NCBI GenBank assembly: GCA_021202335.1
Contig: JAJQDE010000052.1
Span: 1-46,239, forward strand
DNA length: 46,239 nt
Origin: Lachnospiraceae bacterium
GTDB taxonomy: Bacteria > Bacillota > Clostridia > Lachnospirales > Lachnospiraceae
Direction: 5' to 3'
The notes beneath the pieces were generated by a model. It saw only the letters and a program-made list of their open reading frames with translations, was not told the DNA's origin and did no database searches. Of the stretch, positions 7,049 to 26,014 are shown piece after piece. Position 1 is the stretch's first letter. The number at the start of each line of letters is the position of its first letter. Position numbers and translations under genes: made by a program.

Positions 7049-7071
7049 AATGTCCTCCTGACTATTTTTTT

Positions 7072-7113
7072 GCAAGAAAAAAGCAGGCTGCAATCAGCCT
7101 GCCTTTTTCTTGC
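7072..7113 (-). terminator. Rho-independent terminator, likely bidirectional
   Basis: Bases 7072-7090 and 7095-7113 form a 19-bp stem with one non-Watson-Crick position and a four-base loop. The outer stem is A-rich on one side and T-rich on the other, so it gives a U tract in both directions. It lies between the lipoprotein stop and the surface-protein start and would limit read-through into the giant gene. Confidence 0.8.
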
Positions 7114-8760: not shown

Positions 8761-9693
8761 TCACCCCAATCCAAATTCCCTTTTATGTGTGGAAATATAA
8801 AGCCTTCCGAGAAATTCATAGCCTTTTGCATTTGCCTTTACATCCTCAATGTACTGGATATTGCTTCCTTCATGGCTGCCAAAGAGCTTCATGACCGTTG
8901 CCCCGCCTCCCACAAAAACAATCTCTGTAATATCAAGGTTATATCCATGCTCCAGCAGGATGTTGTAGACCTTTTCTGCATAACCCTTAAGACATTCCTC
9001 CACGATAGCCATGTACTTCTGCGGCAGCTTTCCGGCTTTTCCGGTCCTCATGACCTCCTGTATATCCTCCTCGCTGATTTCCCTGCCATGCTGGCGGATA
9101 CATTCATCATTGATTGTACCCATGCACTTAATCAGACCTTCCCTGAGTGTGATACATTCCGCTTCGTTTGGTGCGGAGTCTTCAATGGGCATAATGTCGA
9201 TGGTCCAGCTTCCAATGTCAACCACCACTACCCTTTTGGGCAGGTTTTTCATCCTGTCGGCAACCGCCGCATAGCATTGCGGGAACACCGATACCCTTGC
9301 AAGATTTATACGGTACTGCTCCTTGTCAAAACGGAAGGTAACTTCCTTATTTCTTGACCGGTATTCGATAAAATCCTGCTTTTCTGCTCCAAAACGAGTA
9401 AGGGGCAGTCCAACGGATAAAAGAATATCTGCATTTCTCATTCCCCGTCTGTTCAGCTCTTTTGCTGCCGCTGCCAGTGTAAGAAGATAGAAGTTGTCAT
9501 TTTCCACCTTTAAATCCCTTACCTCCAGACGTTTCCCGCCTACCTTGTAATAAGAACCATTATATTCCACCACGTTGTTGAAAAATGCAGGTTCCGTTGT
9601 AATTTCCTTTACTCCGGTAGTAAATACCTGACTGACCGTTTTTATACCGGACCAGCCATGATCCACACCGATTACTTCGATATGTTTATTCAT
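8761..9693 (-). CDS. parM: ParM/StbA-like actin-family ATPase
   Basis: A 310-residue actin-like protein. Actin-fold motifs are visible: phosphate-1 loop GVDHGWSGIKT near the N-terminus, phosphate-2 loop VVVDIGSWTIDIM near the middle, and an adenosine-type motif VFVGGGATVM near the C-terminus. ParM-type proteins polymerise with ATP and push DNA copies apart, which fits an element with an extrachromosomal or transfer phase. The ATG at 9693 has a GGAGG site and overlaps the TGA of the preceding gene (ATGA), so translation is probably coupled. The longer frame from 9759 is not supported. Confidence 0.8.
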   Translation of the reverse strand: MNKHIEVIGVDHGWSGIKTVSQVFTTGVKEITTEPAFFNNVVEYNGSYYKVGGKRLEVRDLKVENDNFYLLTLAAAAKELNRRGMRNADILLSVGLPLTRFGAEKQDFIEYRSRNKEVTFRFDKEQYRINLARVSVFPQCYAAVADRMKNLPKRVVVVDIGSWTIDIMPIEDSAPNEAECITLREGLIKCMGTINDECIRQHGREISEEDIQEVMRTGKAGKLPQKYMAIVEECLKGYAEKVYNILLEHGYNLDITEIVFVGGGATVMKLFGSHEGSNIQYIEDVKANAKGYEFLGRLYISTHKREFGLG

Positions 9694-9989
9694 TCTGCGT
9701 TTCCTCCTGTCTCTGGTTTTCCATGCTTTCCCAATATCTTTTTCATACATGGGAAACAATACTTTTCTGACTGACGATACGGACAGTCAAAACACTCACT
9801 CTCCATATCCTGCTCTGAAACTTCCGCTTTCCTTTCCTCCCTGACACACTGGCTTGCAATACATTGACTGTTATTGCCATAAAAGAACCGGCAGTGCATA
9901 CAGCTTTTCAAATCTCTTTCCAGCTTCATTTTTGCTGTAATCACATCAAGCGGCTTCGGGGATTTTTTTACCCTGATGTTAATTCCCAT
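9690..9989 (-). CDS. Cys-rich small protein, possible zinc binder
   Basis: A 99-residue protein starting MGINIRVKKSPKPLDVITAKM. It has eight cysteines arranged in pairs: CMHC, two single cysteines eight residues apart (QCIASQC region), CFDC and CFPC, which suggests one or two zinc or metal sites. It lies in a tight operon: its start is inside the end of the preceding 47-residue gene and its stop overlaps the start of the ParM-like gene. The TTG start at 10,070 is possible but less likely. No family recognised; a DNA- or protein-binding role in the partition operon is a guess. Confidence 0.65.
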   Translation of the reverse strand: MGINIRVKKSPKPLDVITAKMKLERDLKSCMHCRFFYGNNSQCIASQCVREERKAEVSEQDMESECFDCPYRQSEKYCFPCMKKILGKHGKPETGGNAE

Positions 9990-13068: not shown

Positions 13069-16000
13069 CTAATTCAGCTTGATGTACATAATTCCTGCTT
13101 CCGTGTCTAAGTCATATATAGGCAGACTGTCTATCTTATAACCCGTATATGTCGGGCTGAACATATCGCCCGAAACGCTCATCCATGTCATTCCGGTCAC
13201 GGTAGAGCGGATTCGATATGTTCCCGTGGTGGTATCTGCAACATGATAGATGCTGAAATTCGGAACGCTCACCTGCATAAACCACCCATATGTGCTTTCA
13301 CTCATCGAACCGTTATTGGTCAGCGTAAGCATTTCCTCCCACTCACCGCTGTCATTCAACTTATCTATCGTCGCGGTAAAATATGCCTGCGTCTTTTGTA
13401 TGTTAAAGTATGTCGGCGCAAGCGTGACATAGAAGTACATATTATAACCTGTCAGCTCTATCGGACTGCTTACGCTTCCTACCGTCTGCGTCGTGCCGTC
13501 TATCGTTTTCTGATAATTCGCAGACACATACTGATTTGTATACGGCTCAAAATAAACCTCCGACTCCGGAATAGTATAGTACCTGAACGCGTCTGACGAT
13601 GTATCAAGCATGGTCTGATAATCATCGGCATACGAAGTACCCCATCCTCCCCATGAGCCGTCCCAAAGCTGATACCCTGCTTCTTTCCAGCCGCAGCCGG
13701 CTTCAAGCAGACTTTCATCAAGAGGCCAGTAAATATACTTATTCCCATCCGACGCGGTACCATATACCACATTCACAATCTCAAGCTGATACTCCTGCGT
13801 CGGCAGGAACAAAAGCGAACCATAGTTACCCGAGAAGAAAGCTTGCGTTTCACTATTGGTGTCCACCATATGCCACTTCATGTTTGATGAATCCCAGCTA
13901 TCGCCCGTTTCCTTATATCTGAAGAAGCTCCTCTGAACCGAACCATACGCATCTTGCGTAAAGTATGTGCTTCTCACACTGTCAAAGGTTGCAAACGTAT
14001 AATCGTCTGCCCTTTGGAAGCCGCTCGCCACTTCATATGTCGCTCCAAGCGAAATCTCCCCATACACGCCGCCATAATCCTTGCCGGACTTATTGTACTT
14101 CGTCGTGCCAGAAACGGAGCTGTCGTCTATGCTGTCGCCCAAATTGTCATAGCTTCCATATGAATGCAGCGAATACGCCCTGATTTTCGCCCCGCTCGGA
14201 AGCTCCTGCAAAAGCGTAAAGGTCGTCGTCGCCTTATGGCTGCTTTCGCTCACAGCGGTTGAAATATTCGAAAAATATTCCGTCCATTCGCTCAGCGCCT
14301 TCTCCTTGCCGTCATAGTACATCCGCCACTCCATCGTGTAAGGCGTCTTGTACTCGCCGTGATTTTCCGTTTCCCAGCGGCATGTGTTGCCGTCATCGTC
14401 CGTCTGCATCGCATAGTATTCAATGCCGTCCGTGCCATAGCCTGTCGGATATGCCTCCAGCGTAATCTCCTGCCCCTCAGCGTTTAATCTGCTCAAGCTG
14501 CTTGCGCCTGCCGCCTTGACCGATACCTTATTTACACGCCGTATGGCAATCGTAAAATCAGCAGACGCAATCGCGGCATCCTTTGCGTTATACGCCGTCA
14601 CTGTCACGGTAATCAGCCCATCCTTATTTGAACCGACCTCATCCGTGCCAATCTTCATTCCCAAATACCACGTCCGCGTATTATCCGCGCTGGTCGCATT
14701 ACTTGCCAGATACGGATTGACATTCCCATACCTGTCGACATCCGTTTCAGGATAATTGCTTATCCTGGTTGCAGAGCTGCTGTTGCCTGAAATAGAAACT
14801 GACATCTTATACACAGCGCCCTCTGCAATAATCGGAATGATAAGCTCCTCATCCGAATCATCCTTAGAGTCCTCCGTGCCCTGCCCCGGCTCCGCATAAA
14901 CCACATCCTTTGCCGCACTGATGCCAACCTCACCCGTCAGCGTCACGCTGTCGGAAGCCGTCCCATACGCAATGCCTGTCTTATTTGTGGCAGTCGTACC
15001 CCTGCTCCCGCTGTATGTATATGTTCCCAGCGGATGAAGCATCTCCATCGTCACCGTGAATGTCCATCCGTCAGGCAGACCGGTGACCGTGTCCGCGCCG
15101 CTTTTTCCAAACGACACGTCAATCTCAGGCATCTGCTTCAAATAATAATTCCCATCCGAATCTGTCTGCACCCTCGGATGCTTAATGCCTTGGAACGAAT
15201 AATAATCCGTATCGTAATTGCTTATCTTGGAAACTGCCTTTCCCGTAGTCCCGTCATAAATATTGGATAAGCTGTTGCTTGTCGTACCCACCGTCGCCAT
15301 ACAGACCACGGAGTCCGACTTTACGATTGTTCCGCTTTTATTTTTAAGCGCCCAGCTTATTTTCGTGGAAAGCGTTTCCGGTACAACTGTGTTATCGTCA
15401 TACAGATACGTCAAAAGCGTATCATCCGTCACGCCGTTCGACACATTGATTCTTCCTCTGAAATCATACGTAGGCGTGGCAAGCGCAGACTTCCCATCCT
15501 CTGAAAGCCAGTTGTCAAATACCATGATTGACATAACGTCAATCCTGCGCACATGGACTATCACGGTCGTAAGGAGCGATGAAGCCACATTAGCCTTACC
15601 CTGCGGATAAACATATATCACAAACGTGTACGGATTGCCTGTCACAGTGTCCTCACTTGCGCCGCTGCCCTTCTCATCATTACCGAGCTTAATCGTCACC
15701 TCATCCGTCGACACATCATATGAAGCCGCCGTCGCAGCATCCGTATTTCCGGAAATCACCAAATCCATATCCGTCGTGCCGCCCAGCGTTCTAAGGCTCA
15801 CCGTTCCCGTTTCGTTCGGCTCGAGCGTAATCTCAAAGCCTCCTGACACCTTTGCATCCCTCGACGTAAGAGTTTTCTCTCCCGACACATCGGCATAATC
15901 CGAGCCTGAACGCTGATATGTATAGTCGTTGTTATCGGCATGGTTTGCCTTGTTGTACCCGTCCGCATGGTTCGACGTTGCCGTCACCGTAAGCGAAAAG

Positions 16001-17259
16001 TCAGACGGCAAATCCTGCAATGCCGTGAATTTAATCTGCGGATAGGTCGTTACCTCATAGCAGCTTACAAACTTCACATAACCGCCGGCATCCTGCCACG
16101 AAAAGCCGCTGTCCGCCGCGTTGCCTGAGGTATATGCAGTTGTAGTCCCGTTTGCCGTAAGCGTCCAGCTCCATGTAACCGCCTGCGCCGTCATATAATA
16201 TGTATCATAATCCGTCGCAACCTGCTTTGCGAGGTTATTCCCCGTGACCGCCGCCGCAAACGTGTAGATCGCATCCTTTTCCTCAAGCAAGCCGTTGTCC
16301 GTGGCGCTCACATCGCTTGACACGCTCACCGCCACATTCTTGACCTGACGCACGTAAACATTGCAGGTCGCAGTTCCGACAGGGGTAATTCCATCGTCAC
16401 CCGTTTCCTGCGTTGTAATATAAAGCGTATAGTAATCCACGCTAAGCGAATCCGCCGTGTCAAGCGTCACGCTCACATAATCCGTCGTCACCGAATTTAT
16501 GGTTAATCCGGAGCTTCCTGTATTCTCATTCACGTCCGGCACATTCGTCGTGCCATACACCGTAATAGGTATATCATACGTTTCTCCCGGCACCAGCACG
16601 ACATCCTCAGCATAAACCTGCGCAATCGGAGTAACCGCAGCATATGCCACGCCCGTGCCCGATTCGTTGCGGGACTTCATCGTGTATGTCATAGGTATCT
16701 CGCGCCCCGTGCTGTCGTCCTTCACAGTCATTTCAAGCGTGATTGTCCTGTTATCCGCAAAATCCGACGTATCAGCAGTAAACGCCGTGATGTTGCTTGC
16801 CATAAGCTCCTGATTTCCCTGTAAGACGGCAGAGCCTGTCGAAACGTCATACTCTCCATACAAAAGCCTGCCGTCAGACGGATAATGGAAAAAGCTGTAC
16901 TGTGTGCTGCTGTTCGTCGTCAGTGAAAGCTCCGTGTAATCATTCCCGTTTGTCACTGCGGCTCCGCTGTCGTCAACCAACTCAACACCGTCTTTATAAT
17001 AATTGCCGCCGCTTGCAGCAGCATACACAACCGTATACGCGTCCTTAACGACATTGCTTATGGTGTTCGCCGCAAGCTGCGCCTCCTGCTGGACGCTCGT
17101 CTCCGAAATGCCCTTGCGGTAGGTTCGCGTGCTCACGGTTATCACGCCGCCTATCACACCCGACACAAGCCCGAGTATCGCCACGGCGCACAAAACCTCA
17201 ACAAACGACATACCCTTGTTATCTCTGTTTTTTTTCAGCCTTTCAAATATTTTTCCCAT
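13069..17259 (-). CDS. Giant type IV pilin-like protein (1,396 residues)
   Basis: The N-terminus NRDNKG-MSFVEVLCAVAILGLVSGVIGGV is a class III (prepilin) signal with Gly at the cleavage site and Glu at +5, followed by the hydrophobic helix of PilW/PilV-type minor pilins. The ectodomain of about 1,340 residues is far larger than typical minor pilins (150-350). It is rich in Thr, Ser, Asp and Gly, with recurring beta-strand-rich Ig-like segments (for example EDVVLVPGETYDIPITVYG, EPNETGTVSLRTLGG, EGAVYKMSVSISGNSSS). Very few Cys. It is the last gene of the pilus operon. A tip-located adhesin is the natural inference, not shown by the sequence. Start at 17,259 with a GGGGG site. Confidence 0.85.
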   Translation of the reverse strand: MGKIFERLKKNRDNKGMSFVEVLCAVAILGLVSGVIGGVITVSTRTYRKGISETSVQQEAQLAANTISNVVKDAYTVVYAAASGGNYYKDGVELVDDSGAAVTNGNDYTELSLTTNSSTQYSFFHYPSDGRLLYGEYDVSTGSAVLQGNQELMASNITAFTADTSDFADNRTITLEMTVKDDSTGREIPMTYTMKSRNESGTGVAYAAVTPIAQVYAEDVVLVPGETYDIPITVYGTTNVPDVNENTGSSGLTINSVTTDYVSVTLDTADSLSVDYYTLYITTQETGDDGITPVGTATCNVYVRQVKNVAVSVSSDVSATDNGLLEEKDAIYTFAAAVTGNNLAKQVATDYDTYYMTAQAVTWSWTLTANGTTTAYTSGNAADSGFSWQDAGGYVKFVSCYEVTTYPQIKFTALQDLPSDFSLTVTATSNHADGYNKANHADNNDYTYQRSGSDYADVSGEKTLTSRDAKVSGGFEITLEPNETGTVSLRTLGGTTDMDLVISGNTDAATAASYDVSTDEVTIKLGNDEKGSGASEDTVTGNPYTFVIYVYPQGKANVASSLLTTVIVHVRRIDVMSIMVFDNWLSEDGKSALATPTYDFRGRINVSNGVTDDTLLTYLYDDNTVVPETLSTKISWALKNKSGTIVKSDSVVCMATVGTTSNSLSNIYDGTTGKAVSKISNYDTDYYSFQGIKHPRVQTDSDGNYYLKQMPEIDVSFGKSGADTVTGLPDGWTFTVTMEMLHPLGTYTYSGSRGTTATNKTGIAYGTASDSVTLTGEVGISAAKDVVYAEPGQGTEDSKDDSDEELIIPIIAEGAVYKMSVSISGNSSSATRISNYPETDVDRYGNVNPYLASNATSADNTRTWYLGMKIGTDEVGSNKDGLITVTVTAYNAKDAAIASADFTIAIRRVNKVSVKAAGASSLSRLNAEGQEITLEAYPTGYGTDGIEYYAMQTDDDGNTCRWETENHGEYKTPYTMEWRMYYDGKEKALSEWTEYFSNISTAVSESSHKATTTFTLLQELPSGAKIRAYSLHSYGSYDNLGDSIDDSSVSGTTKYNKSGKDYGGVYGEISLGATYEVASGFQRADDYTFATFDSVRSTYFTQDAYGSVQRSFFRYKETGDSWDSSNMKWHMVDTNSETQAFFSGNYGSLLFLPTQEYQLEIVNVVYGTASDGNKYIYWPLDESLLEAGCGWKEAGYQLWDGSWGGWGTSYADDYQTMLDTSSDAFRYYTIPESEVYFEPYTNQYVSANYQKTIDGTTQTVGSVSSPIELTGYNMYFYVTLAPTYFNIQKTQAYFTATIDKLNDSGEWEEMLTLTNNGSMSESTYGWFMQVSVPNFSIYHVADTTTGTYRIRSTVTGMTWMSVSGDMFSPTYTGYKIDSLPIYDLDTEAGIMYIKLN

Positions 17260-17281
17260 AATAATCCCCCATTCCGGCTTG

Positions 17282-17863
17282 TCAGGATTGGCTCTCGCTT
17301 GTCGAGAATGTTATCCCGCCCGTCAAAGGCTCCAGTATCACATAATAAGCTTTTCCTGCCTTGGATATGCGAAAGCCTGTGCAATACACATTGCTCTCAG
17401 TACCGTTCACTTTTATCTTTTCTTTCATCGCGCCGCTCGCCGAATCATACCAAATTTCTATGTAGCTTCCGTCCGTAAGCTCAGTATATGTGTAGCTGCC
17501 GCTGCTGCCCGTGCGGTACTCCACCGTCACGCCCTTTGCCCCGACCACGCTGCTGCGGTCGCTCGTTTCGTTCTCTGACAGGTCGTCATTCAGGCTTATC
17601 ACTGTATGCTCCGAAACCTCCAGCTGCCCGCTTGAATCCTTCTCAATCTTTATTGTGTTCCTGTATTTCCCGAGCGTCACCGTGCGCCCGTGCGATATTG
17701 CGCTCGCAAGCTTTCTTGCGCACTCCTCGGCGGGCTTTCCGCTCACCATGGAAAAGCCAAAGCCGGCAACGCCGCTGATTGCCGCCATGATTGCTATCAC
17801 GATGATTATTTCCACCAATGAGAAGCCGCGGCTGTCATTCTTTAATTTTTTAAGCTTACTCAT
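17282..17863 (-). CDS. GspH/FimT-like minor pseudopilin
   Basis: A 193-residue protein starting MSKLKKLKNDSRG-FSLVEIIIVIAIMAAISGVAGFGF: a prepilin signal with Gly before the cleavage site, Phe at +1, Glu at +5 and a pilin helix. The ectodomain of about 150 residues contains a CARK segment and a beta-rich C-terminus (VLEPLTGGITFSTSESQS), consistent with GspH/FimT-like minor pilins that form part of the pilus initiation complex. ATG at 17,863 with a GGAG site. It sits 30 bases after the PilX-like gene. Confidence 0.85.
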   Translation of the reverse strand: MSKLKKLKNDSRGFSLVEIIIVIAIMAAISGVAGFGFSMVSGKPAEECARKLASAISHGRTVTLGKYRNTIKIEKDSSGQLEVSEHTVISLNDDLSENETSDRSSVVGAKGVTVEYRTGSSGSYTYTELTDGSYIEIWYDSASGAMKEKIKVNGTESNVYCTGFRISKAGKAYYVILEPLTGGITFSTSESQS

Positions 17864-17894
17864 CGCTTTTGGCTCCTCTCCCTTCAAAACTTAT

Positions 17895-18647
17895 TTACGG
17901 AACGGTATACGTCACCGTTTCAGGCTCCGTCCCCACCTCAATGTCATCGTACTCATCACTCATATCATAGTCGTAGTCAATCCTCTGCCAATTGATATAT
18001 GAGATGCAGTCCGTGAATGAGATCGTCTCGCCGCTGCCGTCGCTTCTGTTGTCCGACCAGTCAATCATCGGCGCCTCCATGCATATATCCGTATACAAAA
18101 ACGTTGTGTAATTTCCGTATGTATACTTGACCCTCACGCCCCGCAGGACGAATTTCTTCGTCTTATCCGCGCCCGTGTCATCTTTAATCTTGTAAACGCC
18201 CGCCGTTGATGATACATCGTAAACACACTTCCGCGTCGCCTCGTCCACGCCGTTATCTTCCATAAGCTTCTGCACCGCCGATGACATTTTTCCGTCAGAC
18301 GTAGCGCTGAGCCTGTCGTTCCATATGTCAAGCAGCTCTTCGTTGAAGCAGTCAGTGAAATTAGCTTTCCTCGAATCCCCGCTTCCAAGCAGTATGAACT
18401 GCGCCGCTGTATCAGCATATGCCACAGCGTAAGCATCCTGCACATCCTCCACGAGCAGCGCGCGGAGCGCATCAAGCGCCTGCTCCGCGCCGTAGAAGCT
18501 CTGCTTATTCTGATAGTCGGTCTGCTTCTGCTGATAGTTCATCGACGCCGTATACAGAAGCGTTGTCGCCAAAAACAAGATAAATGTTGTCACAACCAGC
18601 ACGGTTATCAATGCCGCGCCGCGGTTATCCGGCTTTAAGTTTTCCAT
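17895..18647 (-). CDS. PilX/GspK-like minor pilin lacking Glu5
   Basis: A 250-residue protein with the signal NRG-AALITVLVVTTFILFLATTLLYTA. The residue at +5 is Thr, not Glu. Loss of Glu5 is a known feature of GspK and PilX-type proteins placed at the tip of the pseudopilus, where no subunit lies above them. The mature part begins with a long helix (NYQQKQTDYQNKQSFYGAEQALDALRAL), also like PilX. It lies between the PilV-like and GspH-like genes, the usual order of minor pilin cassettes. Its start is one base after the stop of the upstream gene. Confidence 0.75.
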   Translation of the reverse strand: MENLKPDNRGAALITVLVVTTFILFLATTLLYTASMNYQQKQTDYQNKQSFYGAEQALDALRALLVEDVQDAYAVAYADTAAQFILLGSGDSRKANFTDCFNEELLDIWNDRLSATSDGKMSSAVQKLMEDNGVDEATRKCVYDVSSTAGVYKIKDDTGADKTKKFVLRGVRVKYTYGNYTTFLYTDICMEAPMIDWSDNRSDGSGETISFTDCISYINWQRIDYDYDMSDEYDDIEVGTEPETVTYTVP

Positions 18648-18648
18648 A

Positions 18649-20163
18649 TCAATCTATCCCTTCAATCACCGTACTCTCCATCGAGGTGACGCTGCCGCCC
18701 GTACTTTGCCGTGTCACGGTAAGAGTGACTGCATATGAGAGCGTTTCATTATCCGTAAGGCCATTGCCCGCATACATAAAGCCCAAGCCTGTCGAAGTGT
18801 CCAGACTGTACACTCCTCCGTTCGTACCGCTTATCGTCGGAATCGCCGAAGCCGAAGTCGTCGCAGAGCTGTCTCCGATATTGATATCCAAATTGTGGAA
18901 TACCACGACATTCGCGGTCGACACATTGCTTACCGACACATTCGGCGAATAGCCTGACTCCTTTGTCGTCGTCTGCGCATCGGTCAGATTTGCCGCCCTT
19001 TGCTTTATAATGTAGCACTCAAAATCATCCATGCTGCCCGACAGACTGCTGTCCACGGTAATCGTCATATTGTCGGTCAGGCTGTATTCCGGATAATAGT
19101 AAACATAAAGCCTGTCAAGCCCTGAAGCCGTGTTGCTGTATACCTCGCCGCCCGGATATTCAGTGCTGATGTCAACCGTATAATACATGGTGCCGCCCAT
19201 TGCGGTGTTGTTCAGCGTTTTCGTGCTCTCGTTTATGTTTTTTGTGTAATCCCCCGTGTATTTATCATATGTTTTTGTCGTTTCCCTGACCACATACGGG
19301 TACCCCGAAACCTCATAGCCAAATTCCACCTCGGCAGTCACAATATAGCTGCTGCCGTCATACTTGACGTTGAAATCTATATTTCTTTCGCAGAGCGACA
19401 CATAATTTCCAATATAAAAATTACCATCCGAGTCGAACACTACATTTTCCACAATGCTGCTGTCCGTGATATCATACTCATCCGTACCGTCCGTGACAAA
19501 TATCTCAACAGCCGTGCTCGAGTCCTCCAAGCCGGTCTTTACGCCGTCAAAGTGAGCCGCCAATGCGCTCGCGTTGCTGCTTTTATTGGTTTCCGCGAAA
19601 TCAGTCTTAGCATTTTCGAGCGCCTTTGTGTCCCATTCCTTATCTCCCTTAAACACGGCATCCCTTGTCGCCTCCGCATCCTCCGGCACATACACATCCA
19701 GCTTGCTGCCGGGCGTTGCCGTAATCTCCACGTCATAGGTCTGAGAATTGCTTGTTAAGCCCGCAACGGTGAATGTATATACCGCATCCGAAGCTATCAA
19801 GTCCAAATAGTCAGCGGAAACCGTGGTTATGTCTGCATCCGTCACACCGTCAGTCGATGATGTATATGTGCATGAATAGCTTGCGCCGTTCAGCGCATCG
19901 CCGCTCAATAAGCCGTCCAAACCCGTGCCGGCATTGAATTTCCCTGCCATTCCGGCTTTGCCGCTCACTCCATACCCCTTAAAGCTCTCCATGATGCTCT
20001 CCGCGGTGAGCGTCAGCTCCTGGCGCACCCTCGCCTTTGAATTGTAAACCATGGAAGTGGTGAGCGACTGCAGCACGGGCACAGCCACAAGACCCAATAT
20101 CGTTATCGCGATAATGACCTCCACGAGCGTCATGCCCCGGTTATCTTTCCTCTTACTCAACAT
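18649..20163 (-). CDS. Large PilV/PilW-type minor pilin (504 residues)
   Basis: Starts MLSKRKDNRG-MTLVEVIIAITILGLVAVPVLQSL: a prepilin signal with Glu at +5 and a pilin helix, then QELTLTAESIMESFKG as in PilV. The ectodomain of about 460 residues is rich in Thr, Ser, Asp and Tyr, larger than normal for the family. ATG at 20,163 overlaps the end of the pilO-like gene by 11 bases. The open frame extends 87 codons upstream, but that part is an Arg-rich shadow of pilO and is discarded. Confidence 0.85.
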   Translation of the reverse strand: MLSKRKDNRGMTLVEVIIAITILGLVAVPVLQSLTTSMVYNSKARVRQELTLTAESIMESFKGYGVSGKAGMAGKFNAGTGLDGLLSGDALNGASYSCTYTSSTDGVTDADITTVSADYLDLIASDAVYTFTVAGLTSNSQTYDVEITATPGSKLDVYVPEDAEATRDAVFKGDKEWDTKALENAKTDFAETNKSSNASALAAHFDGVKTGLEDSSTAVEIFVTDGTDEYDITDSSIVENVVFDSDGNFYIGNYVSLCERNIDFNVKYDGSSYIVTAEVEFGYEVSGYPYVVRETTKTYDKYTGDYTKNINESTKTLNNTAMGGTMYYTVDISTEYPGGEVYSNTASGLDRLYVYYYPEYSLTDNMTITVDSSLSGSMDDFECYIIKQRAANLTDAQTTTKESGYSPNVSVSNVSTANVVVFHNLDINIGDSSATTSASAIPTISGTNGGVYSLDTSTGLGFMYAGNGLTDNETLSYAVTLTVTRQSTGGSVTSMESTVIEGID

Positions 20164-20935
20164 TCTCCTCAGCTCCGTCCTCAGCCTCATCTGCCTCCGC
20201 TTCCTCAAGTGCCGCCCTTGCCTTCGCGTTGCTCTCCGACTTAAACAGATCGTCCGTGCCCGCAAGGTACGATGCGATGTCGGGAGCCTCGTACTCCTTA
20301 TCCGTGCCCGCAACGCAATAGAAATAAATGTCGATATTTCCCTTAAGCGTGCCCGTTTCCTCGTCCTTTGAATACACAATATTGTCAATGCCGATGCTGT
20401 TATCGGACGCGTAAATCTGCTCAATCACGCTCTTTAAGTCGGCATACGTCGTCGTGTTCACATACACCGCGTGCTTGCGCGCAAAAACAAGACTCTCATC
20501 CAAGCCCTCAATCTCCGCCGCATTCACCAAATCAGCCTCAACCGTATACACGCCCTCTTTTTCTTCCATATTAACAGCGTCATAGGCAATCGCATTCTTC
20601 CTCTGGAGCTGCACCGCAAGCATAATAGCGTCCTCCTCGCGCGTGTCCGCCGGATATTCCGCCAAAATCGAGTCTGCCTCCGCCTTAATCTCCTCAATCT
20701 CAACCTTGTACTGCTCCATGTTGCGGTTGTATTCCTCAAGCTCATTCACCGTCGCGGTAAGCTCCCTGTTTGACGCCTCAAGCGCCTCCGTCTTTTCCGT
20801 GTATTCAAGATACACAAAAACATACAGGATTACCAGCAGCAGCGCGCCCACAAGCGTCACTCCCAAAAAGGTCTTTTGGTTAAAGTAATTTTTCAGCTTT
20901 TTTGTGTTAAGAGTAATCCCCTTTTTTGCTCCCAT
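20153..20935 (-). CDS. pilO: PilO-like pilus assembly protein
   Basis: A 260-residue bitopic protein: short cytoplasmic N-terminus, one membrane helix at about residues 23-43 (FLGVTLVGALLLVILYVFVYL), then a coiled coil (EKTEALEASNRELTATVNELEEYNRNMEQYKVEIEEI) and a small C-terminal globular domain. This is the PilO architecture. PilO pairs with PilN and aligns the assembly platform of type IV pili. Position directly after the PilM-PilN fusion supports this. The last 25 residues are acidic. GGGGG site before the ATG. Confidence 0.8.
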   Translation of the reverse strand: MGAKKGITLNTKKLKNYFNQKTFLGVTLVGALLLVILYVFVYLEYTEKTEALEASNRELTATVNELEEYNRNMEQYKVEIEEIKAEADSILAEYPADTREEDAIMLAVQLQRKNAIAYDAVNMEEKEGVYTVEADLVNAAEIEGLDESLVFARKHAVYVNTTTYADLKSVIEQIYASDNSIGIDNIVYSKDEETGTLKGNIDIYFYCVAGTDKEYEAPDIASYLAGTDDLFKSESNAKARAALEEAEADEAEDGAEENVE

Positions 20936-20949
20936 TCCAATCCCCCATT

Positions 20950-22497
20950 CTATTCAGCCGCAGCCTCCGTCGCCGCTTCCGCAGCCGTCGAAGACGCCAC
21001 GGGCGCAACAGGCGTGTCAACATAGTAAACGCATGTCACCGTAAAGCTCACAGTAGTTTCCCTGTCCTTAAGCACATCTCCCGAGTCTTCGGTTTCCTCC
21101 TCGACAATGCTCTCCACGGTCACGCTCTCAAGCGACTCAAAGCCGCGCAGCGTCTTAATGATGCCCGCCGCCGTTTCCTTCTCCTCCACGCGCATCGTCA
21201 TGACGCACTGCGAATCATCTGAAGAAAAATCAACCATCTCAAGCTCTGACGGCATCTTCTCCTCAAGCTCCGTAAGGAAATCAATAATACCGTCGTTGCT
21301 GTGTTCCGTCAGCCTCCTGCCATAGCGTATCTGCGCAATGAAATCCGTCAAGCCCACATATTGGTCATGCACTGCCCTTGCAGGCTCAATCTGCTCCTGC
21401 TTCCTTTGCAGTGAGCTTTGCTCCGCAAGCGCCGAATTATACGGAATAAGCGCCATCGAAAGAAGCGCCGCCGCAAGCACGGCAAAAAACACAAGCATAA
21501 GGATGCACGCGGAAACATAATTCGTTTCATGGCGCTCCTTCTCCTTTTCAACGTCAATACCCACGCTTGAAATACCCGCGCCGATTGCAGCCGCAAAGAG
21601 ATTGGTCTTTGCGCTCTCTGCCTGCCTGCCGATTACAGTGCCGCGCACATATTCAAGCATACGGCACGAAATGCCCGTCTGCTCCTGCATAAGCTTCATC
21701 AGGTCGTCCGTGCGCGAACCCTCTCCAATCAAATAAATCTGCTCTATCGTCTTTGACTCATTATTCGACGCGAAAAAGTCAATCACACGCGTTGCCGTTC
21801 CCGTCAGCACATGGTTGATTTCCTCCCACTCGGGCAGCTCCCCATCGTCCGCGTAGCCCGTCTGATAGTTCACCGTGCGCTGCATCATCATCACGCCCTG
21901 CTGCAGAATGGTAATCAGCGCGTTCTCACGCTCAGCCTTCACCACCATGATTGCCTCCGCACCCGCGTTCTTTTTCGTCGCCTGTATTACGGAATTTCCC
22001 GTATAATCAATATCCGCGATATAAAGCCCCAAATCCGCCGCAAGCTTCTCATAGCCCGCAATCAGCGCGTTCTCCACAGCCATGACAAGCACCTTATGCC
22101 TGCCCGCATTCTCGCCGTCGCGATATGTCTGGATAAGCGAATGGGCAATCTTATAGTCGTCAAGCTCAATCGGGAAATACTCGCTGACATTCGACTCAAT
22201 CATCGCGCCGATCTGATGCTCCTTTATGACCGGAAGCGTCACCTCACGGCTGATGATTTTCCCCGAAAAGACCGTGAACAGCACGCGCCTTGTGCGGATT
22301 TTGTTTTCCTTCAGCGCCGCACGGATTTCCTCCTTTAAAGCCTCCGCCTTTTCCGGGTTGATATAGCCGTCCCTGACTGCACCCTCCGGCGTTTTTGCCT
22401 CCACACATTTATAAATCCTGGGTTTTTTCTGATGCAAATCCATCTCGACAAGCTTAATCGTCGAGCATCCGATTTCCACGCTTAACACCTTTGCCAT
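20950..22497 (-). CDS. PilM-PilN fusion protein
   Basis: A 515-residue protein. Residues 1 to about 320 form the actin-like PilM domain (KVLSVEIGCSTIKLVEMD; TVFSGKIISREVTLP; ADIDYTGNSVIQA; IYLIGEGSRTDDL). A membrane helix lies at about 328-352, followed by a coiled coil and the small ferredoxin-like domain of PilN (ELEEKMPSELEMVDFSS onward). In most bacteria PilM binds the short cytoplasmic tail of PilN as a separate protein; here the two are one chain. The C-terminal 20 residues are Ala-rich. GGAGG site before the ATG. Confidence 0.85.
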   Translation of the reverse strand: MAKVLSVEIGCSTIKLVEMDLHQKKPRIYKCVEAKTPEGAVRDGYINPEKAEALKEEIRAALKENKIRTRRVLFTVFSGKIISREVTLPVIKEHQIGAMIESNVSEYFPIELDDYKIAHSLIQTYRDGENAGRHKVLVMAVENALIAGYEKLAADLGLYIADIDYTGNSVIQATKKNAGAEAIMVVKAERENALITILQQGVMMMQRTVNYQTGYADDGELPEWEEINHVLTGTATRVIDFFASNNESKTIEQIYLIGEGSRTDDLMKLMQEQTGISCRMLEYVRGTVIGRQAESAKTNLFAAAIGAGISSVGIDVEKEKERHETNYVSACILMLVFFAVLAAALLSMALIPYNSALAEQSSLQRKQEQIEPARAVHDQYVGLTDFIAQIRYGRRLTEHSNDGIIDFLTELEEKMPSELEMVDFSSDDSQCVMTMRVEEKETAAGIIKTLRGFESLESVTVESIVEEETEDSGDVLKDRETTVSFTVTCVYYVDTPVAPVASSTAAEAATEAAAE

Positions 22498-22547
22498 CTG
22501 TTATCCTCCAATACAGCAATCTTTTCGTTTCACAAGCCGCAAGGCTC

Positions 22548-22587
22548 ATTTCCCATATATCCGACTCCGTCCGGGTACATGGGAAAT
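22548..22587. other. Hairpin between pilD and the pilMN fusion
   Basis: ATTTCCCAT (22548-22556) and ATGGGAAAT (22579-22587) are exact reverse complements around a 22-base loop. It sits in the widest gap inside the pilus operon (about 120 bases). There is no U tract, so an RNA processing or stability element is more likely than a terminator. Confidence 0.5.
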
Positions 22588-22618
22588 AAACCGCGCGTTT
22601 TGCCTGTTATCAGTATAA

Positions 22619-23374
22619 TCATCCGTAAAACCCTAAATACCACGCAATCAGCCTGTCGCCCCAAAGCGCGGCAATAAATATGCCTGCCGAAAGATACGGA
22701 CCCATCGCCAGGACGCGCTCCGCTCCGGAAACCCTCATGCGAAGCAGATGTATGACCGAGCCTGCAATGCACCCAATCAAAAATGCAAGGATAATCAGCT
22801 TCCAACCCAAAAGCAGCCCTGCTGCCGCCATGAGCTTAATGTCTCCGCCGCCGATTCCCCTTCCCCCTGTCAGAAGATACAGGATATACAACGGTGCGCT
22901 GACTGCAAAAAAGCCGATAGCATACTCTTGCCAATCAGACAAGTCCGTCAGCACATGTATCAGCCCAAGTCCCATAATAATCAAATTAAAACCGACAGGT
23001 ATCTCAAAAGTCCTAAAATCAATAACGGAAAGCGCAACGAGCGCACTCGCCGCAAAGCAGTACAGAACAGTTTCAACGCCAAAGCCGTAAACAGCAAACA
23101 CGATAACCCAAAGAACCCCGTTCAGCCCCTCTATAATAGGGTACTGAACGGAAATCCCCGCCTTGCAGGTGCGGCACCGCCCTCGCAGGGCAATCCAGCT
23201 GAAAAGGGGGATGAGTTCGTACCAGTTCAGCTTGGTGCCGCATTCCATGCAGTGGCTTCTCGCCGTCACTATATTCTCTTTTTTGGGAATCCTGTAAATG
23301 CACACATTCAGGAAGCTGCCGATTATTATTCCGTAGAGGAATATAATTATGTAGAAAGATATAGTTGGGAGCAT
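22619..23374 (-). CDS. pilD: Prepilin peptidase and N-methyltransferase
   Basis: A 251-residue integral membrane protease (A24 family) that cuts prepilins after Gly and methylates the new N-terminus. Seen: N-terminal GSFLNVCIYRIP, two CxxC pairs (CMEC and CRTC) of the cytoplasmic zinc-binding loop, and both catalytic aspartates (SVIDFRTFEIP and GGGDIKLM). About seven to eight hydrophobic helices. It is the second gene of the operon and processes the major pilin and the four minor pilins. AAAGGAT site before the ATG. Confidence 0.95.
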   Translation of the reverse strand: MLPTISFYIIIFLYGIIIGSFLNVCIYRIPKKENIVTARSHCMECGTKLNWYELIPLFSWIALRGRCRTCKAGISVQYPIIEGLNGVLWVIVFAVYGFGVETVLYCFAASALVALSVIDFRTFEIPVGFNLIIMGLGLIHVLTDLSDWQEYAIGFFAVSAPLYILYLLTGGRGIGGGDIKLMAAAGLLLGWKLIILAFLIGCIAGSVIHLLRMRVSGAERVLAMGPYLSAGIFIAALWGDRLIAWYLGFYG

Positions 23375-23410
23375 AGGGTATCCTTTCTGTCAAGAAATCT
23401 CAACCAATAA

Positions 23411-23836
23411 TTAATAACCCATTGCTGTTTGAAGAGCAGAACCATTAGTGCCACCATAGGTTATCATTCCATCAAGGGCATACGTTATTGTCCAATCTTG
23501 GTACGCTGTACTCTTCATAGTCGGAGTACCCGTTATACCCGCATCACTCAAAGCATTCTGAACCGTCGTATCAGTTGTTGTGTCCACAGAACCGCCAGTG
23601 CACGAAAGTACAGCAGCAGTTGTTACACTATTGGCAGGATCTGCCATATAAATTTGAACCGCCGATGCCAATGTATCAATAGTATCAAGGTCTGCAGACT
23701 CTCTTGACCTCTCAACATACCTCAGATACTGCGGTGCAAGCACACCAATCAACACTGCCATGATGGCAATAACGATAATCAACTCGACAAGCGAAAAGCC
23801 CTTGTCGTTAAGCTTCTTTGTTTTTAAATTCTCCAT
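23411..23836 (-). CDS. pilA: Major type IV pilin
   Basis: A 141-residue prepilin: MENLKTKKLNDKG-FSLVELIIVIAIMAVLIGVLAPQYLRYVERSRESAD, with cleavage after Gly, Phe at +1 and Glu at +5. The C-terminal domain of about 90 residues is rich in Thr, Ser and Ala. Size and its place as first gene mark it as the main pilus subunit. ATG at 23,836 has an AAAGGAG site; the ATT-region start at 23,872 is not used. A single Cys is present, so no disulfide loop. Confidence 0.9.
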   Translation of the reverse strand: MENLKTKKLNDKGFSLVELIIVIAIMAVLIGVLAPQYLRYVERSRESADLDTIDTLASAVQIYMADPANSVTTAAVLSCTGGSVDTTTDTTVQNALSDAGITGTPTMKSTAYQDWTITYALDGMITYGGTNGSALQTAMGY

Positions 23837-24202: not shown

Positions 24203-24421
24203 CTATATTTTACTATTGAAATATTCCTGTGTCACCTTTAACTGCTTTTTCATAATTTCCTGCCACATATGCGGATGAATTTCACCGGAGCCTTTTGATA
24301 CCTTCGTCATTCTTATATTTCCATTTTCGTCTGTTTTCCGATAAAAATAATGGTCTGTATCTTTATATAATTCCCATCCGTCCTTATCACAAAATCTCTT
24401 TAGTTCTTTCCATCGAGGCAT
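24203..24421 (-). CDS. HicA-like toxin
   Basis: A 72-residue basic protein. The segment GWELYKDTDHYFYRK with a central His and the following beta-strand NIRMTKVSKGSGEI resemble HicA/YcfA-type mRNA interferases, which have a small dsRNA-binding-like fold and a catalytic His. It overlaps the end of the upstream gene by 22 bases and has a GGAGAGGG site. This order, antitoxin first, differs from classical hicAB but is common for this subgroup. Toxicity is inferred from the family. Confidence 0.65.
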   Translation of the reverse strand: MPRWKELKRFCDKDGWELYKDTDHYFYRKTDENGNIRMTKVSKGSGEIHPHMWQEIMKKQLKVTQEYFNSKI

Positions 24422-24825
24422 AGTATTCCCTCTCCTATCTTTTGTGAGTCGTCAATAATCAATGCCTTGAAAATATATGGAATATGCCCTTTTCGATTCG
24501 GACTATTGCTATACATCTCATAGTCATTATAGTAATCAACAGAATATTCCAAAATGGATTTTCCGAGAGCCAAACGCGCTTCCGACTCGTTGTTTCCGTT
24601 TTCAACTAAATCAATCTCATTCAATGACAGCGTTATTGTTCCATCATCTTCCACATATCTGTCAGCCGTAAACCGATATGCAGACAAAATCTCAGACATT
24701 GTTTCCAAATTTGAAAACCACATTTTGTCCCTTGTACGCTTGATGAATTTAGGCTTTTCATGAATAACGCTATCGCAAAACGCGCTCCACTGTTTTCTAA
24801 CTTCCGTTGCCGGTTCCATCAACAT
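24400..24825 (-). CDS. Antitoxin partner of the HicA-like toxin
   Basis: A 141-residue protein. I recall the segments KPKFIKRTRDKMWFSNLE, ILSAYRFTADRYVEDDGTITLSLNEIDLVENG and PNRKGHIPYIFKALI from antitoxin-type proteins paired with HicA-like toxins in Clostridia. The part around TLSLNEIDLVENG is the partial RNase-H-like HicB-type region. The start is the ATG at 24,825 with a perfect AAAGGAGG; the ATG at 24,852 overlaps the -10 box and cannot be in the mRNA. Confidence 0.7.
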   Translation of the reverse strand: MLMEPATEVRKQWSAFCDSVIHEKPKFIKRTRDKMWFSNLETMSEILSAYRFTADRYVEDDGTITLSLNEIDLVENGNNESEARLALGKSILEYSVDYYNDYEMYSNSPNRKGHIPYIFKALIIDDSQKIGEGILCLDGKN

Positions 24826-24850
24826 ATCAATCACCTCCTTTGACACCTCC

Positions 24851-24879
24851 ATTATAACGCATACTATTTTTCAGGTCAA
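24851..24879 (-). promoter_or_regulatory. Promoter of the toxin-antitoxin pair
   Basis: Minus-strand TTGACC (24874-24879) and TATAAT (24851-24856) with a 17-base spacer, close to consensus. The palindrome GTACA-TTG-TGTAC (24888-24900) lies directly upstream of the -35 and is a candidate operator for autoregulation. Confidence 0.75.
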
Positions 24880-24951
24880 CGCAAAATGTACATTGTGTAC
24901 GTTTTTATATTATGCGGAAAAATATAAGCGTTATTCATAAAAGGCAATTCA

Positions 24952-24987
24952 TCACTCATTCCTCATATCTTCCAATAGTTTACACAT
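24952..24987 (-). pseudogene. Eleven-codon frame with strong ribosome-binding site
   Basis: ATG at 24,987 follows AAAGGAG and reads MCKLLEDMRNE, then two TGA stops. It lies just after the methyltransferase stop. Many Lachnospiraceae proteins begin in a similar way (MCK-LLEDMRNEA), so this is probably the truncated 5' end of such a gene. Confidence 0.35.
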
Positions 24988-25006
24988 AGTCGCCACTCCT
25001 TTTTCA

Positions 25007-26014
25007 CTATTTTTCCATAACCCTTTTTATTTCTTTGGCTATCGCTTCAATAACATTTACCGTTACGCTGTTTCCAAGCTGTTTATATAAATGTGCATCA
25101 GCCAATTCCAGCTTAAAATCATCAGGGAAGCCTTGCAATCTCGCCCATTCCCTCGGCGTAAGCTTTCTGATACCGTCCTTATTGATTTCCCCTTTGATAT
25201 GCGTTGTTGGTATCATGGAGTGTTCTCTTTCGTCTTTTATAAGATTTCCCTCTCTGCCCATGCCGCCGCAAACGATGGTTCCCGAAATTCCATATAAGTC
25301 CCTGATAACATAGCCAAAGCCATGTCCCTTCGCTTCATGCCTTGCTCTATGCTTTATCAGGGTCTGCATATATGTATCAGACAAATAATACTTTGCCGGA
25401 ACAGGAGCGTCTTGAAGAATATCCAAAATACATTTATTATCCTCTGTTCCTACCGGGAAAACAAAGCCGTCCGGAGCGTAAGCTTCCAGCAAGTCATTCC
25501 TGATACACACTAAATAAATCCTTTCCCGGTTCTGCGGCACTCCAAAGTCTTTGCTGTTCAGCACCTTATCATATACCGTATACCCTATCTGTTCGAACGC
25601 AGCCTTAATAGTTCTAAAGGTTCTGCCCTTGTCATGAATAGTCAGTCCCTTTACATTCTCACAGAAAATAATTTGGGGTTTATGGTAATCGCATATCCTG
25701 ACCACATCAAGGAATAGCGTTCCCCTGCACAGCCCTTTATAATCGTCATCAAAGCCCTGATGCCTTCCTGCCATTGAAAATGCCTGGCAGGGAAATCCCG
25801 CTAAGCAAATATCAAAAGCCGGAATGTCCTTTTCATTTATCTTTGTTATATCTCCGGCAATTTCAAAATCGTCCGGATAATTTGCTCTATATGTTTTTTG
25901 AGCAAACTCATCCCATTCGCTGACAAATACAGTTTCCATGTCATTTCCAAAGGCGTTATCAAAGCCCTTTCTTATGCCGCCTATACCGGCAAATAAGTCT
26001 ATTGCTCTATACAT
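25007..26014 (-). CDS. DNA (cytosine-5-)-methyltransferase
   Basis: A 335-residue C5 methyltransferase. Motifs in order: I DLFAGIGGIRKGFD near the N-terminus, IV AGFPCQAFSMAG with the catalytic Cys, VI FCENVKGL, VIII QNRERIYLVCIR, IX REWARLQGFPDDF and X GNSVTVNVIEAIA. The target recognition region between VIII and IX is short, about 100 residues. No restriction endonuclease gene is next to it, so it may be an orphan regulator, an anti-restriction gene, or a remnant. AT-rich compared with the core genes. GAGGTG site before the ATG at 26,014. Confidence 0.93.
   Translation of the reverse strand: MYRAIDLFAGIGGIRKGFDNAFGNDMETVFVSEWDEFAQKTYRANYPDDFEIAGDITKINEKDIPAFDICLAGFPCQAFSMAGRHQGFDDDYKGLCRGTLFLDVVRICDYHKPQIIFCENVKGLTIHDKGRTFRTIKAAFEQIGYTVYDKVLNSKDFGVPQNRERIYLVCIRNDLLEAYAPDGFVFPVGTEDNKCILDILQDAPVPAKYYLSDTYMQTLIKHRARHEAKGHGFGYVIRDLYGISGTIVCGGMGREGNLIKDEREHSMIPTTHIKGEINKDGIRKLTPREWARLQGFPDDFKLELADAHLYKQLGNSVTVNVIEAIAKEIKRVMEK

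Follow-up and report, generated by a model that had tools for sequence, protein, structure and literature searches.

A type IV pilus operon was found on the minus strand of a 46,239-nucleotide stretch of DNA from a Lachnospiraceae bacterium (NCBI GenBank assembly GCA_021202335.1, contig JAJQDE010000052.1, positions 1 to 46,239; hereafter the window). The last gene of this operon (13069..17259) encodes a pilin-like protein of 1,396 residues, about 1,380 in the mature form, read from an ATG with the bases GGGGG located six bases upstream. This giant protein is probably a modular minor pilin occupying the J position of an HIJK tip-initiation complex, in which a stalk holds a ligand-binding head off a retractile pilus. 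The anatomy on which this reading is built consists of the gene set, a pilin module, tandem repeats, a series of lengths among relatives, a fast diverging stalk and head, and a short K subunit in the same clade.

The operon encodes PilA, PilD, PilMN, a PilO-like protein and then the minor prepilins in I-K-H-J order. PilA, the major type IV pilin and product of the first gene (23411..23836), scored 33 bits with N_methyl, above the cut-off, with partial matches to GspG and PRK10574; its ATG sits within a GTG-started frame (23411-23836). An Rfam search identified no riboswitch upstream of pilA. The prepilin peptidase PilD (22619..23374) matched A24_N_bact and Peptidase_A24, both above cut-off, and the PilM-PilN fusion (20950..22497) matched PilM_2 with 68 bits over residues 7-210, also above cut-off. 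The PilO-like protein (20153..20935) was assigned by its position and a weak match to PF04350 (E 0.046, below cut-off). With this reservation for PilO, the gene set of PilA, PilD, PilMN, PilO and four minor pilins was as described in the initial annotation, made from the sequence before this analysis.

The I-like minor pilin of 509 amino acids (18649..20178; GspI/PilV/ComGE type) matched the ComGE, PilV and GspI models. When I-like proteins were aligned, the first two models matched 22 out of 22 and GspI 20 out of 22 (E≤0.05). Its size of about 500 residues had been pointed out earlier and is correct, and it is ordinary for the family, the median I having 422 mature residues over 64 operons. 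The K-like protein (17895..18647) has 250 amino acids and was assigned by the GspK model and alignment A7 as a short form without an insert of about 500 residues. Its match to GspK (E 3e-6) covers the N-terminal residues 9-72 and is far below the model cut-off. Thr is found at mature position 5 instead of Glu, in agreement with the earlier description of a PilX/GspK-type pilin lacking Glu5. The H-like protein of 193 amino acids (17282..17863; GspH/FimU type) gave an N_methyl match above cut-off and a partial GspH match (E 1e-4). All HIJK subunit types are therefore encoded together, with K lacking Glu5, H judged on the window protein alone and the J type by position.

The giant protein carries a class III prepilin signal, consisting of a short charged leader, a Gly, and then Glu5 and a hydrophobic helix. 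Its TIGR02532 score was just above the cut-off (16.5 vs 16.3), and N_methyl gave a borderline 19.6 bits for the single protein, below the cut-off of 21.2, and 25.4 bits in a genome scan, above it. N_methyl also matched all 21 aligned full-length members, the window protein included (E≤0.01). This bears out the prepilin signal that had been noted on a protein of about 1,400 residues.

Five segments were distinguished on the giant: the pilin module (residues 1-205; 16645..17259), stalk repeat 1 (206-472; 15844..16644), repeat 2 (473-780; 14920..15843), repeat 3 (781-1075; 14035..14919) and a C-terminal head of 321 residues (1076-1396; 13072..14034). BLASTP of the giant against itself showed no repeats, so profiles were needed to detect them. 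Alignment A2 of the 21 full-length members was cut into segments, which were compared profile to profile. The stalk proved to be composed of three tandem a-b units, with a domains of about 100-128 residues (206-306, 473-576 and 781-908) and b domains of about 165-204 (307-472, 577-780 and 909-1075). The a domains matched each other with E-values of 8.2e-12, 1e-9 and 1.9e-6 and the b domains with 5.1e-14, 9.6e-14 and 2.7e-7. No profile-profile match was found between a and b segments of A2, or between the head and the a and b repeat profiles. With an N-terminal pilin module that stands bare in other genera, and separate non-pilin repeats and head, the giant has the make-up by which modular pilins are recognised.

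AlphaFold2 models were made of residues 1-472 (model mff18c4bfcd94; 33 sequences; mean pLDDT 78.7) and 781-1396 (model m366646dec745; 21 sequences; mean pLDDT 84.5). The former shows a helix at 19-72, strands at 74-195, a stretch of lower confidence at 201-220, taken as the linker, and then beta domains; block pLDDT was 77-92 for residues 61-200 and 52-70 for 41-60. The latter is mostly beta with short helices. Foldseek returned multi-Ig and Ig-like proteins as the best matches (complement C3/C5, protocadherins, S-layer proteins, Aureispira GhpA) with low TM-scores, which supports an Ig-like array and points to no specific relative. The models thus support Ig-like domains, as the initial annotation had suggested; the Thr/Ser-rich character described there also holds, Thr and Ser making up 22.6% of the mature giant.

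The head is rich in aromatic residues, with 17.8% Phe, Tyr and Trp vs 8–11% in the rest of the giant. Columns with at least 90% aromatic residues or His numbered 13 in the aligned head vs 10 in repeat 3, so that the conserved part of this excess is modest. Both the head (pI 4.16) and the whole mature giant (pI 4.3) are acidic. Pfam gave no trustworthy domain in the giant and no recognised family for the head. Among the 21 aligned members, CBM_26 matched two (best E 0.0066) and Ig-like models one or two each; no vWA or lectin domain was detected by Pfam in the giant or these members. Searched by sequence against solved structures, repeat 3 with the head had a single match at chance level (Tpn50, E 0.19), and the other half of the giant had four, three of which were pilin N-termini. 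The suggestion that mucin or plant fibre is bound consequently found no support, as neither Pfam nor the solved-structure search gave a trustworthy carbohydrate-binding family.

The giant is best read as a GspJ/PilW-position minor pilin, on the basis of its position, exclusion of the other types and the pilin module. A profile of residues 1-205 matched 296 frames in the survey loci described below, since the prepilin signal is common to prepilins. In the best 70 of these 296, terminal pilins of other genera, bare as well as loaded, ranked first, with matches spanning most of the module. The giant is therefore best seen as an ordinary minor pilin bearing a graft of about 1,190 residues.

For the survey of relatives, 80 loci were taken, of which 76 were selected by PilMN matches and the other four were additional or partner contigs. 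The full I-K-H-J set could be recognised in 63, which together with the window gives 64 operons; the 17 others were dropped owing to contig ends, missed genes and, in two operons (L079, L141), an H located elsewhere. Since the caller demanded H immediately preceding J, the H-J order is built in and is no independent proof. In L106 and L118 the prepilin counted as J is followed by another. The row for the window was entered manually, its mature lengths being approximate (I 503, K 241, H 185; on recount 496, 240 and 180). K lengths were counted from the hydrophobic segment, and a contig end truncates the J of G187. Within these limits, H was constant at 149–226 mature residues, J ranged from 155 to 1,380 and K from 177 to 1,062 (median 786). 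Taking at least 350 residues as large, only K was large in 39 operons, both K and J in 20, only J in four (the window, G196 of the window's genus, G187 and G116) and neither in one (G249). There was no general trade-off between the lengths of K and J (rho −0.06, p 0.61, 64 operons).

Matches to PilMN were present in 79 of the 250 family genomes and in 20 of the 38 genus genomes, and matches to the giant in 34 (mostly via its N-terminal part) and 21, respectively. A single-protein scan of genome contigs detected no relative of the giant; a profile scan with alignment A1 yielded 32 related loci. These named loci are largely the same genomes as the family and genus hits, as judged by coordinates (G250=L196, G251=L188, G196=L199), so the sets are not independent. 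Profile mapping of the 33 J proteins revealed a series of lengths: one a-b unit and a head in L205, L206 and L214 (690–697 amino acids), two units and a head in L193, L197 and L199, and three units and a head in the window and 15 others. L198:9974-15025 and L201:9974-15142 encode a longer J of about 1,700 amino acids with two heads (E 1e-49 and 1e-81). The other nine (L204, L207–L213, L215) keep the pilin module, with one a-like domain in eight, and have no b domain or head. L218 (genome G577), from another genus of the family, has the one-unit form with head in a frame of 706 residues.

Profile A4, made of repeat 3 and the head, matched 21 of the 38 genus genomes, each on one contig and in one frame. 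At the level of the order, two of 392 genomes were matched, among them the genome of the window. All 22 graft-bearing frames (21 of the genus and one further) begin with a prepilin motif; the sole other order-level frame is a prepilin too and follows an H pilin within a pil operon. Homologues outside pilus operons and lacking a prepilin signal, which the initial annotation had named as contrary evidence, did not appear. The titles of the relatives' records mention rumen, reticulum, rectum, colon, cecum and 'Lapin' (taken as rabbit), with sheep rumen given for L205 and water-buffalo reticulum for L206; the relatives include the strains COE1 (L188) and A4. In strain A4 (L196:7712-13927) the K, H and J frames are kept and no PilMN was found in the locus; inspection by eye revealed no PilA, PilD or PilO frame upstream on that strand. 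In genome G250, whose coordinates match the L196 contig, the giant was matched and PilMN was not. L196 is a decayed or rearranged operon.

A short K is the exception in this family. K had at least 350 residues in 59 of the 64 operons (for example L090:8622-10739, L104:7201-10437 and L082:8576-11056). In alignment A7, read by eye, all 15 Ks lack Glu5, and the window K shares with ten longer Ks (at least 482 amino acids) the N-terminal 205 residues or so and a last YxNW-like motif, without the intervening part of about 500 residues present in the large ones. The GspK model matched three of the 15, and the tapirin model two, with E 0.031 over residues 6-78 for the window K and a best E of 7.5e-6 in another member. 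Among the matches listed in a literature search for tapirin, none was on type IV pili by title. No Pfam family was found in ten long Ks tested (E≤0.01). The K insert is possibly the family's usual site of a tip adhesin.

The short K goes together with the grafted J. A J with a-b units and head is encoded in 23 of the 32 named loci, and K lies on the contig in 21 of these, always short (frames of 217–289 residues), L185 and L192 being cut; the remaining nine, with a different J, all have a long K (813–902). In a quick PilMN tree (101 of 113 loci gave a PilMN; no bootstraps, midpoint rooted, L073 being the same as L199, K and J lengths of L184–L215 added by hand to the labels), the loci with a short K group in a single clade of 21 members (SH-aLRT 99), separate from the minimal set of L151. 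Parsimony requires two changes for K size and four for J size. Within the clade, L080 has weak a, b and head matches and L076, cut by a contig end, has a and b. The short K of this clade represents a single evolutionary event without independent replication. Its simplest explanation is that the K insert was lost in a lineage where J had already become large, because a large K and a large J occur together in neighbouring lineages. The alternative that one module had moved from K to J was rejected: among the frames of the survey loci, only J proteins were matched by the a, b and head profiles (E≤1e-3).

The identities of the parts were compared as best segments against 12 chosen loci out of 20 of the genus, with means that leave out undetected segments; repeat 2 was detected in six, repeat 3 in ten and the head in nine of the 12. 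The machinery was conserved best (PilD 72%, PilO 60.5%, PilMN 59%), the minor pilins less (H 47%, J pilin module 43.5%, K 41%, I 33.5%), and the graft had 32–37% in the stalk and 31.5% in the head, three of the 12 heads not being detected. A mosaic was seen in close relatives, with 41% in repeat 2 and 23% in the head for L186, and 26% and 46% for L188, a pattern that would fit exchange of parts.

The remainder of the pilus machine was located in the genome of the window (2.74 Mb, 65 contigs, 99% complete), where PilB, PilC and PilT are encoded on other contigs, outside the pilus operon. PilB scored 609.6 bits against a TIGR02538 cut-off of 675.65 and has an MshE-type c-di-GMP-binding N-terminal domain above cut-off (genome G000 C65:148376-149518), so that pilus extension may respond to c-di-GMP. 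The retraction ATPase PilT was above its cut-off (481.9 vs 319.1), and the PilC-like protein matched the GspF and PilC models below theirs. The N_methyl scan of the genome gave four matches, every one inside the pilus operon. Given these genes elsewhere and the confinement of the N_methyl matches, the genome encodes a single type IV pilus, served by a retraction ATPase, and the pilins of this pilus are those of the window. T2SSE and T2SSF matches on contig C15 look Tad-like, judging from the gene set.

Published systems offer a framework for the giant. In HIJK pili, four minor pilins start the filament and stay at its tip, with the Glu5-less K on top (PMC9934059, PMC10191384), and monoderms are described as lacking PilY1 (PMC9934059). 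By analogy, PilD would cleave the giant prepilin, and its first 205 residues or so would be built into the tip of the filament, next to I and underneath the K without Glu5. From there a linker would lead to the stalk of Ig-like a-b units, variable in length, holding the C-terminal head off the filament. The head would bind a surface ligand, and retraction by PilT would pull on that bond. The location at the tip, the contacts with I and K, the outward display and the binding are in this way suggested for the giant by the known systems. Of the tip adhesin assembled through the minor pilin complex that the initial annotation had proposed, a pilin-borne, probably tip-located adhesin stands as the best reading, its tip position and its binding being the parts supplied by this analogy.

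Several observations weigh against this reading. The two large-J survey operons with H elsewhere (L079, L141) indicate that the I-K-H-J order is not universal. The J assignment, resting on position, exclusion and the pilin module, is left unsettled by the family models: on 27 bare terminal pilins, gspJ matched four, gspI 11, ComGF 22 and PRK10557 (PpdB) 23, while among 22 I-like proteins gspJ matched eight and PRK10557 four. Foldseek with the N-terminal model found no pilin in the 50 best matches, which were multi-Ig and other proteins. With 33.5% identity, the I-like pilin has changed as quickly as the stalk, so a high rate of divergence does not by itself mark an adhesin. Binding is something we infer, as the head has no family. 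For C. difficile, PMC9556784 proposes that PilW and PilJ are incorporated along the length of the pilus.

This last precedent favours the chief rival explanation, in which the giant, as an accessory pilin of the C. difficile PilJ/PilW kind, enters the shaft at scattered points and its heads project sideways. The giant has Glu5, so its sequence permits insertion below other subunits. Its gene, however, ends the pilus cluster, unlike C. difficile pilJ and pilW, placed outside theirs in the published account, its pilin module occurs as a bare terminal pilin in other genera, and an extension of about 1,190 residues would be expected to crowd a packed shaft; such an insertion is considered unlikely. 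More doubtful is a purely structural cap or spacer, whose ectodomain would aid the nascent tip through the peptidoglycan or replace the K insert as a tip stabiliser, with no dedicated ligand. The short K in the clade with the giant J, as if both shared the tip bulk, would suit this, but the head is kept while the stalk length varies, and G249, one of 64 operons, lacks a large K as well as a large J, so that tip bulk is not obligatory.

A DNA-capturing subunit, for uptake or for binding of biofilm DNA, would have counterparts among other minor pilins that are large or accessory, such a role having been proposed for Thermus ComZ and reported for C. difficile PilJ and PilW. It appears improbable in view of the acidic head and mature giant, and no second N_methyl prepilin set was found in the genome, where competence genes such as comEC were not searched for. 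It is likewise improbable that the prepilin remains unassembled in the membrane as a surface display anchor. Strain A4, with K, H and J kept in L196 without PilMN and no PilMN match in the corresponding genome G250, speaks for such an anchor; in the remaining genomes where the matching contig is intact, however, the gene lies in a pil operon, and the window's genome holds a whole pilus machine.

The tip-located J pilin with stalk and head may be compared with several known systems. PMC8179133 reports over 1,200 modular pilins in 264 architectures, so the modular pilin as a kind is already known. S. sanguinis has two of them, PilB and PilC, modelled in a tip complex PilABC and binding host proteins and glycans (PMC8179133, PMC9934059). 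The giant resembles these in having a pilin module with linker-joined non-pilin modules, which there have an adhesive role at the modelled tip complex, PilC being described with an Ig-like module besides a lectin module. Unlike S. sanguinis with its three minor pilins, the window has a six-domain repeat stalk and head on the J-position pilin of an I-K-H-J set. It shares with FimU-PilV-PilW-PilX and GspH-I-J-K, in their published role as tip assembly starters, four minor pilins with a K lacking Glu5. The J of known type IV pilus and type II secretion system HIJK sets has about 200 residues. In contrast, J reaches 1,380 residues here, and the gene order I-K-H-J differs from that of the known sets.

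Like the diderm PilC/PilY1 tip adhesins, which the same minor pilins are believed to keep at the tip, the giant is a large modular protein, and by this analogy it is best read as playing the role that PilY1 has in diderms. PilY1, however, is not a pilin and has a C-terminal beta-propeller, whereas the giant has a prepilin signal and gave no Pfam match to that propeller (Neisseria PilC domain) at E≤1. CofB of the ETEC longus pilus and ComZ of Thermus are likewise described as large minor pilins with beta-rich additions, the former a trimeric adapter and the latter a beta-solenoid; neither appeared among the solved-structure sequence matches to the giant (E≤1). Among the open-access papers listed, no title or abstract opening described a J-position repeat-stalk pilin or a Lachnospiraceae K insert; with most subscription papers and all preprints outside this scope, the result is weak evidence of novelty. 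The stalk-and-head form and the shrinkage of the partner K look new.

As a tentative generalisation, monoderm gut bacteria may have a tip adhesin free of PilY1, whose load is either the K insert or the J graft; the a-b units would set the stand-off of an exchangeable, fast-diverging head (one to three units; L198 and L201 carry two heads). In this view the clade with the J graft would have given up the K insert. If true, many uncultured Lachnospiraceae would carry an adhesive part on the tip cap itself, on K or on J, with a stalk varying in length by whole repeat units. The natural series of one, two and three repeats, one or two heads and bare J would suit the study of stalk and head effects on adhesion and retraction force.

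Three other features were observed on the minus strand of the window. Just upstream of pilA (24400-26014), a PHD-like antitoxin-family protein and a C-5 cytosine DNA methyltransferase are encoded. At 1691-7093, 6 kb from the pilus operon and separated from it by L-arabinose isomerase and other genes, lies the gene for an LPXTG-anchored protein of 1,800 residues with a thioester domain and 13 SpaA-domain stretches, which is likely to be another surface adhesin, of the sortase type. At 8761-9759 lies the gene for a ParM-like actin homologue (below the model cut-off) with small neighbours, together resembling a segregation gene of a plasmid or integrative element.

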